A stretch of 64,000 nt of DNA from Halalkalicoccus jeotgali B3 (lineage in GTDB: Archaea > Halobacteriota > Halobacteria > Halobacteriales > Halalkalicoccaceae): the NCBI RefSeq assembly GCF_000196895.1, contig NC_014297.1:806001-870000 (forward strand), written 5' to 3'. Position numbers and translations under genes: made by a program. The notes below the pieces were generated by a model. The model made no database searches. It was not told the origin of the DNA and worked only from the letters and a program-made list of their open reading frames with translations. Positions 53,098 to 54,737 of the stretch are shown here, in pieces; the first letter of the stretch is position 1, and each line of letters starts with the position of its first letter.

Positions 53098-53169
53098 GCC
53101 TGGGTAGCTTAGCGGTAAAGCGCGTCCTTGGTAAGGACGAGACCCCGGGTTCAAATCCCGGCCTAGGCT
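53098..53169 (+). tRNA. tRNA-Thr (anticodon GGT)
   Basis: A 72-base tRNA. Acceptor GCCTGGG pairs with CCTAGGC (one G-T pair), the D arm has AGCTTAGCGGTAAAGC, the anticodon stem CGTCC/GGACG encloses TTGGTAA with anticodon GGT, and the T arm is CCGGGTTCAAATCCCGG. The discriminator is T, normal for archaeal tRNA-Thr. The AT-rich island starts within about 10 bases after it. Confidence 0.96.
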
Positions 53170-53262
53170 TCGCACCTAATATTTGTCTTCGCATTTGATC
53201 TCACTAAATATTGCGGGTAACGATATGATATAGTGTTATCAACTGAAGTACACACAACAGAA

Positions 53263-53272
53263 TTATATTTTA
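53263..53272 (+). promoter_or_regulatory. Promoter of the AT-rich island gene
   Basis: TTATATTTTA lies about 25 bases before the ATG at 53293, a spacing that gives a leaderless transcript. The whole stretch 53170-53292 is AT-rich and holds no other feature I can name. Confidence 0.45.
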
Positions 53273-53292
53273 GCCACAATTGACATTCTATA

Positions 53293-54600
53293 ATGAATCA
53301 GCAATTACTAAAATCATGCTCGGGCACTGTTCAGGAGAAATTAGAAGAATTAGAAGAGATATATGTCGATTATTCCAGAGAAGAGATATTAACATTCAAA
53401 GATGGTTTGGATCTTTATATTCTCAGTAAAGTTCAGTCCGATGCAGTGAGACCATACCTGAAAGAATATGATTCAGATTCTTTTTGGAACTGGGATGAAC
53501 TTACTGATGAACCTCACCGGGCTTGGTATGTATTCCGTTTGTTAAATCGATATAATATCGAAGGATGGAGCGAGGTGAATAATATCAAGGAGATTATCGA
53601 TTGGTTTCGTGATCATCAAACTATTCGGGGGGAAATCAATTGGTCAGAGGGTGAAGACCACTCCGGTCCAATGCGTCTGTTTGTAGAGGCATGCCCTAAC
53701 GCGCTAATGACTAAGAAAGCCGTAGAATACTTCATAGGAAACCCGCCTGATATGTATCCTGCGTATAATTTACCAATTGGAATATCAGCAATATGTGATT
53801 ACAATTACTATAATTATGAGGAGGAAATTGAAGATTTATCTGAAGAATTAGTCAGACATCAACATGAGGAAGGGTATTTTACTAACCGTGGCAAACTTTC
53901 ACAAAATCGGAATTACAATGCCAAAGTAACCTCATTTGCAATACAAGCATTGTCGAAGCAGCCAGGATATGAAAGAGAGATAGCGAATGCGGTGAACTGG
54001 CTGGAGAAATCTGGTACTTATTCAGCTACAGTATTAGGTCTCATATTAAGCTACAAAGGCCCGAAAATCCCACAGGCCAAATATGAATGGGAGAATAGAT
54101 TGTCTGAGCAACGACAAAGTATTGTAGGCTCAGATTTTGTAGAAACATCCCCACCGACCGAGTCCGGTACTCATACTACAACGCTCCGCACTGAAGTTGA
54201 GCGGCTAATCCAAGAGACAGAGAATGAATTAAAAATCTGTTCACCTTATATTGATATGCTTCATGAGGATCTTATCGATCTGTCAGAGAATAACGAGTCG
54301 ATAGAAATCAAAGTATTGGCCAAACCAAAAGGAGATATAAGTGGAAACAGAGCTAGATTAGCAAAAAGTGCTATAGAGCAACTCAACAGAGCAAGTAACC
54401 GAGAAGTACGAACAAATTATCTCATTCATTCAAGAATAGTCATATCTGACAACGAATTACTTCTTGTATCTTCTGCTGACTTCACACGAGATCAATTGGT
54501 AGATGAATTTAACGCGGGTCTTACAACAGGTGATGAAGATGCCATTGCATCGGCAACAAACTATTTTGATAACCTCTGGGCATCTTCAGATCCCTTGTGA
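53293..54600 (+). CDS. AT-rich, probably acquired gene: helical repeat domain plus PLD-like domain
   Basis: The 435-residue product has two parts. Residues 1 to about 275 are helical with repeated motifs WFRDHQTIRGEINW, LVRHQHEEGYFTN and AVNWLEKSGTYSAT, like the toroid repeats of terpenoid-cyclase/prenyltransferase folds. About 295-430 form a phospholipase-D-like domain: LIQETENELKICSPYIDML, an IKVLAKP strand, and HSRIVISDNELLLVSSADFT where HKD enzymes have HxKxxxxD, the lysine here being arginine. Base composition is far lower in GC than its surroundings and codons are AT-ended. It is leaderless, alone, and beside tRNA-Thr. Confidence 0.75.
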   Translation: MNQQLLKSCSGTVQEKLEELEEIYVDYSREEILTFKDGLDLYILSKVQSDAVRPYLKEYDSDSFWNWDELTDEPHRAWYVFRLLNRYNIEGWSEVNNIKEIIDWFRDHQTIRGEINWSEGEDHSGPMRLFVEACPNALMTKKAVEYFIGNPPDMYPAYNLPIGISAICDYNYYNYEEEIEDLSEELVRHQHEEGYFTNRGKLSQNRNYNAKVTSFAIQALSKQPGYEREIANAVNWLEKSGTYSATVLGLILSYKGPKIPQAKYEWENRLSEQRQSIVGSDFVETSPPTESGTHTTTLRTEVERLIQETENELKICSPYIDMLHEDLIDLSENNESIEIKVLAKPKGDISGNRARLAKSAIEQLNRASNREVRTNYLIHSRIVISDNELLLVSSADFTRDQLVDEFNAGLTTGDEDAIASATNYFDNLWASSDPL

Positions 54601-54626
54601 ATAGTAGAATTTATACAAATCATAAT

Positions 54627-54737
54627 CTAATCTATTTTCCTTCTTCTCTGATGCTCCTCCAACCCGTGCTCCACTAACTCGTCCCGCTTCTCGAAGCGCT
54701 CGCCACACAACTGGCAGACGAACTGCCGCTCCATCAT
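54627..54737 (-). CDS. Very small C2H2-like zinc finger protein
   Basis: The 36-residue peptide starts at one of two adjacent ATG codons and reads [20 protein letters not shown] then HQRRRKID, a classical CxxC...HxxxxH-type single zinc finger. The ATG overlaps the stop of the pterin dehydratase gene (TGATG), which shows coupling. Its last codons lie in the AT-rich DNA of the island border. Function as a DNA- or protein-binding accessory is likely. Confidence 0.7.

Follow-up and report, generated by a model that had tools for sequence, protein, structure and literature searches.

Within the window, that is, the whole 64-kb stretch of Halalkalicoccus jeotgali B3 DNA analyzed here, one gene differs sharply in composition from its surroundings (39.4% GC vs 65.6% in the window; third codon positions 33% GC). 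What is a lone AT-rich gene doing behind a tRNA gene, and what might its two-part protein do? The original prediction had named it a solitary acquired gene that joins a toroid-like repeat to a phospholipase D (PLD)-like domain, and a candidate single-gene defence system. The locus comprises the following features:

53098-53169, plus strand: tRNA-Thr(GGU) at the left boundary of the variable site; five congeners have the same tRNA
53170-54647, no strand assigned: AT-rich insert, 38% GC, from congener alignments
53263-53272, plus strand: TATA-box-like TTATATTTTA, read from the sequence, about 26 nt upstream of the ATG
53293-54600, plus strand: toroid-PLD gene, 435 aa, ORF call with Pfam PLDc_2 match (E 1.9e-10)
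53311-54078, plus strand: predicted alpha/alpha toroid domain, residues ~7-262 (AlphaFold model, VIA-align, homologue profile match)
54166-54597, plus strand: predicted PLD-fold domain, residues ~292-435 (Pfam, predicted fold, fold comparison)
54427-54513, plus strand: motif H379-x-R381-x4-D386-x6-S393-xx-D396 ... N407, present in 17/17 family sequences

The toroid-PLD gene occupies a variable tRNA-Thr site

The toroid-PLD gene is the sole ORF in a 1.48-kb AT-rich insert that reaches from tRNA-Thr to a conserved downstream gene. Its length lies far beyond chance: the open run spans 436 codons, whereas 500 shuffled versions of the insert gave at most 171. The ATG is located 123 bp beyond the 3' end of the tRNA, and TTATATTTTA may provide the gene with its own promoter and a leaderless transcript.

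Congener alignments stop at 53169-53177 and restart at 54648-54734. Five congeners have the left flank in common as far as the end of the tRNA, and conserved sequence sets in again at about 54648. The site is empty in L063 and L064, with spacers of 302 and 493 bp only. Other congeners carry cargo of a different kind. L060 (1291-3912) holds 2.6 kb at 34-41% GC, encoding proteins of 642 and 189 aa; the larger has a NERD/Card1-like endonuclease domain (Pfam 4.8e-6; PADLOC CARF_PDDEXK 1.8e-8), and the smaller lacks a Pfam match. This cargo is a candidate for another defence cassette. A KAP NTPase in pieces was found in the 2.7 kb of L061 (PADLOC PifA, 6e-27 and 1e-34), while the 8 kb of L062, at near-normal GC, encode diacylglycerol kinase-like and Usp proteins. 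Flanking repeats of the kind expected at an att site were not found around the insert. Computational comparison thus shows that the toroid-PLD gene was acquired by lateral transfer at a variable tRNA-Thr site, whose AT-rich cargoes look like defence genes, in three cases only. The alternative cargoes, including the PifA-like gene and the endonuclease-domain protein, support the idea of a defence role, and haloarchaeal defence genes may be exchanged singly at this site.

Structure prediction yields a toroid joined to a PLD fold

A full-length AlphaFold model was built using a ten-member family alignment (mean pLDDT 79.6). Fold comparison with VIA-align matched residues 7-262 of this predicted model to drimenyl-diphosphate synthase with a Z-score of 18.4 (rmsd 3.4 over 233 residues), to squalene-hopene cyclase with a Z-score of 17.0 and to the complement TED with a Z-score of about 16.5. 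Furthermore, the homologue L022 passes the Pfam gathering score for SQHop_cyclase_C (E 2.1e-11), and a profile search of the homologue L030 gave a Prenyltrans match (E 7e-4). The N-terminal half is therefore predicted to be an alpha/alpha toroid on the basis of its fold, together with profile support from a homologue. In the family alignment, none of the toroid columns conserved in 93% or more of the sequences is an Asp, and the catalytic Asp motif of cyclases was hence not found. Conserved toroid positions are scattered and include Q109/G113 of a QW-type repeat.

For the C-terminal half, Pfam PLDc_2 covers residues 304-429 (E 1.9e-10, 41.1 bits compared with a cut-off of 27). Modelled by itself (pLDDT 77), this domain was closest, among solved structures, to two nucleases, NucT (Z-score 18.2, with an rmsd of 2.3 across 146 residues) and Nuc (Z-score 18.1). 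The next matches were PLD-fold proteins of viruses, eukaryotes and archaea, TrmB and TrmBL2 among them. Fold and profile match together place it in the PLD superfamily. Structure prediction, fold comparison and homologue profiles thus agree with the predicted pairing of both domains in one solitary acquired gene, and no fold other than PLD emerged for the C-terminal half. Searches of PHROGs with the protein gave chance-level matches only, and the whole-family sequence profile retrieved from the PDB a single weak match, Mus81, which is probably due to chance. We also considered TbsP as the identity of the C-terminal half and rejected it; the similarity is weak, and the TbsP of the same genome has no His motif.

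A sparse family with mixed neighborhoods

Full-length members were found in 7 of 391 sampled haloarchaeal genomes, indicating a sparse family. A copy on a Haladaptatus plasmid shares 58% identity with the window gene and is named "phospholipase D-like domain-containing protein" in RefSeq. Other members come from a Methanosarcinales MAG, Methanoperedens, an Anaerolineales bacterium (Chloroflexota) and further same-phylum genomes of one family, with ANME/Methanosarcinales-like archaea among the hosts. Together with the plasmid copy from Haladaptatus, the window gene groups in the tree with a methanogen/ANME-like/Chloroflexota clade (support 100/99) and stands apart from the other haloarchaeal copies, a pattern that fits repeated lateral transfer. 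Homologues were not found in phage records or in viral contigs, the latter searched using few seed patterns, and we therefore claim no viral origin.

In Methanoperedens (L029:3413-6298) the gene seems to be split, with a 401-aa ORF, perhaps an insertion element, between the parts. A second type of protein (L071-L081), present once per genome in many of the sampled members of a single archaeal family, combines a membrane-like N-terminal region with a canonical HxK/N/E PLD domain. These proteins are possibly the sister group of the family's PLD domain.

The original prediction would have been refuted by homologues confined to metabolic neighborhoods. This is not the case, as some homologues stand beside defence-type genes, but several others are found among ordinary ones. 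Fragments from the C-terminal part of a Type IIG restriction-modification gene adjoin the homologue in L023, L025 and L026, with a longer copy in L025, and the L026 homologue also lies beside HmaB/HmaC-like genes. In L104, proteins with Mrr_cat (Mrr-like endonuclease) and SLFN_AlbA_2 (Schlafen) domains are encoded in one AT-rich island. L030 has a C5 methylase neighbor, and L028 a phage-type integrase and an IS66 transposase nearby. In Haloferax, a precise 2.9-kb insert in L024, which also contains a 238-aa ORF of unassigned kind, is absent from the congener L094. The surroundings in L022, L027, L099, L100 and L103 are ordinary, with a tRNA-Ala upstream in L103. Across the loci, no conserved neighbor was found other than restriction-modification remnants, pieces resembling mobile elements and some small ORFs. 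Because several homologues lie among ordinary genes, the neighborhood evidence for a defence role is suggestive, not universal. The proposed single-gene defence system is backed by the variable site with its PifA-like and endonuclease-domain cargo and by defence-type neighbors at some loci, and may be regarded as a candidate.

Several further arrangements were observed. The Type IIG fragments are repeated, as if cassettes had been added past the 3' end of the homologue. In the Methanosarcinales MAG (L022:5129-9642) the gene begins 39 bp past an A-type ATP synthase subunit gene. In the ANME-like L099, L100 and L069, the homologue is followed by a conserved ORF with a Cys cluster that resembles an endonuclease III-type protein, at a distance of 2-18 bp in L099/L100. 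This likeness was judged by eye, and the ORF gave no Pfam match at E 1e-3.

The active site is uniformly altered

Canonical PLDs carry H, K(+2), D(+7), G/T(+14), N(+17) and E(+28), and the Nuc active site uses these positions. Instead of the canonical HxK(x)4D(x)6GSxN, the family has HxR(x)4D(x)6SxxD. The Arg for Lys that had been pointed out in the HSR motif is indeed present (H379-S-R381). The term "degenerate", however, does not fit a motif that is kept uniformly: all 17 members have H-R-D-S-D-N, 2 of them with one residue less between D and S, whereas the 27 sampled outgroup PLD domains, taken from DrmC-like haloarchaeal and other archaeal PLD proteins, all have H-K-D-[GT]-N-E. A Glu homologous to +28 is also visible in mitochondrial cardiolipin hydrolase within the profile alignment. 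At +2, +17 and +28, the family thus has R, D and N in place of the canonical K, N and E. The first change preserves charge, and the other two exchange amide and acid.

Across the 17 sequences, which span two phyla, H, R, D, S, D, N and G are invariant, a figure that may be slightly inflated because one family scan was seeded with S[ST]AD; members L065-L068 were instead recovered by searching translated genomes with a profile. On average, pairs of sequences are 41% identical in the PLD half and 24% identical in the toroid half, which hence diverges faster. Invariant site positions despite low overall identity argue that the active site is under selection. Since a site that had lost its function would hardly keep the His plus all partner residues fixed, and since amide and acid have been exchanged between +17 and +28, the sequences suggest an active site that was re-wired and did not lose catalysis. 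The same K→R change ("HRD") occurs in BrxL-fused HKD nucleases of a BREX survey, for which sequence analysis judged activity to be likely kept (PMC12839542). AgaP, a haloarchaeal PLD protein of an Argonaute immune system, is toxic through H105/K107; its +17 residue is likewise Asp, but it relies on a remote GSxN (PMC11442185). Asp at +17 alone therefore leaves catalysis unsettled.

A candidate defence factor and its alternatives

We somewhat favor the reading that the gene encodes an undescribed, horizontally moving one-gene defence factor, in which a toroid sensor is combined with a predicted nuclease-type PLD half. The toroid would sense or bind an infection-related partner or ligand, or would keep the protein inactive. 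Upon a trigger, the single-motif PLD domain could be released and, as a homodimer resembling Nuc/NucT, could cleave nucleic acid of the invader (or host), with H379 forming a phospho-histidine intermediate. In this scheme R381 would take over from the canonical lysine, and D396 and N407 would stand in for the canonical N/E pair. Dimerisation is typical of one-motif PLDs. While architecture and folds are predicted from models, we infer H379 catalysis, dimerisation, the sensor or latch function and the anti-virus or anti-element role. Counting against this reading are the negative charge that Asp brings to +17, where the phosphate-binding Asn normally sits, the lack of a defence neighbor at about half of the loci (L022, L024, L027, L099, L100, L103) and one cargo in the same tRNA site (G200) that is not defence-like.

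The chief rival, which we consider unlikely, is a pseudo-enzyme whose PLD half has only a binding function, for DNA like that of TrmBL2 or for a ligand like that of TrmB; the protein would serve as a regulator or decoy of acquired elements. Replacement of the canonical Lys and Asn, the rank of TrmBL2 among the top fold matches and weak Regulator_TrmB profile matches in several homologues speak for it. However, the putative nucleophile His and six more site positions are kept in every member at ~27-32% overall identity, which would not be required of a domain that only binds, and no wHTH domain was detected in the protein. A DNA-repair or housekeeping nuclease is improbable. The adjoining ORF in the ANME-like loci would suit such a role, but its identity as endonuclease III-like lacks profile support, and the gene is sparse, AT-rich in haloarchaea and present or absent at homologous sites. 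Least probable is a lipid or isoprenoid enzyme acting on archaeal lipids: terpene cyclases are fold neighbors of the toroid, and PLD-fold proteins include lipid hydrolases and phosphatidyltransferases, but the conserved columns contain no Asp-rich cyclase motif, the toroid fold also occurs in the complement TED and other non-enzymatic domains, and the neighborhoods are not lipid operons.

If the gene is a defence factor, it would be a compact candidate for archaeal immunity, a field in which few single-gene systems are known. We tentatively raise the possibility of an undescribed archaeal/bacterial single-gene immune family, in which a toroid sensor would directly control a PLD nuclease whose coupled K→R, N→D and E→N re-wiring possibly alters substrate choice. 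The conserved triple substitution also poses a clean question for PLD enzymology: can R/D/N stand in for K/N/E?

Comparison with known systems

The open-access literature yielded no report of a defence protein that combines an alpha/alpha toroid with a PLD nuclease. The family is not covered by a PADLOC model, and the top PADLOC matches are partial ones to DrmC, the PLD-like protein of DISARM. Among defence profiles, DrmC fits the C-terminal half best (NCBIfam 8.3e-9; PADLOC 2.7e-7), but the score of 35.3 bits stays far below the curated NCBIfam cut-off of 133 for an equivalog, and DrmC-like haloarchaeal relatives retain H-K-N-E, unlike the toroid-PLD family. The insert, whose sole ORF is the toroid-PLD gene, is also too small for drmA/drmB partners as in DISARM, and its flanks are common to congeners. 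TrmB and TrmBL2 combine an N-terminal winged HTH with a PLD-like domain, whereas the N-terminal half here is a predicted alpha/alpha toroid. This half shares the fold of class II terpene cyclase and TED toroids (Z 16-18), and differs from the cyclases by the missing conserved catalytic Asp motif, a single barrel and the PLD fusion.

Among defence-linked PLD domains, the BrxL-HKD fusion of BREX likewise has K→R (PMC12839542). It differs in its AAA+ fusion inside BREX loci, and the comparison made here covers the K→R position; five haloarchaeal BrxL proteins that we examined did not contain the HxK/R(x)4D motif. AgaP (pAgo-PLD, APAP) is also a haloarchaeal defence PLD with an unusual motif and shares the Asp at +17, but it keeps the Lys, has the remote GSxN and a partner Argonaute, and no toroid is described in the available part of the report (PMC11442185). 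Finally, the C-terminal domain has the fold of Nuc and NucT across nearly its whole length (Z ~18) and, like them, one HxK/R motif per chain. Unlike Nuc and NucT, the family has R, D and N for K, N and E at +2, +17 and +28, and its PLD domain is fused to an N-terminal toroid.
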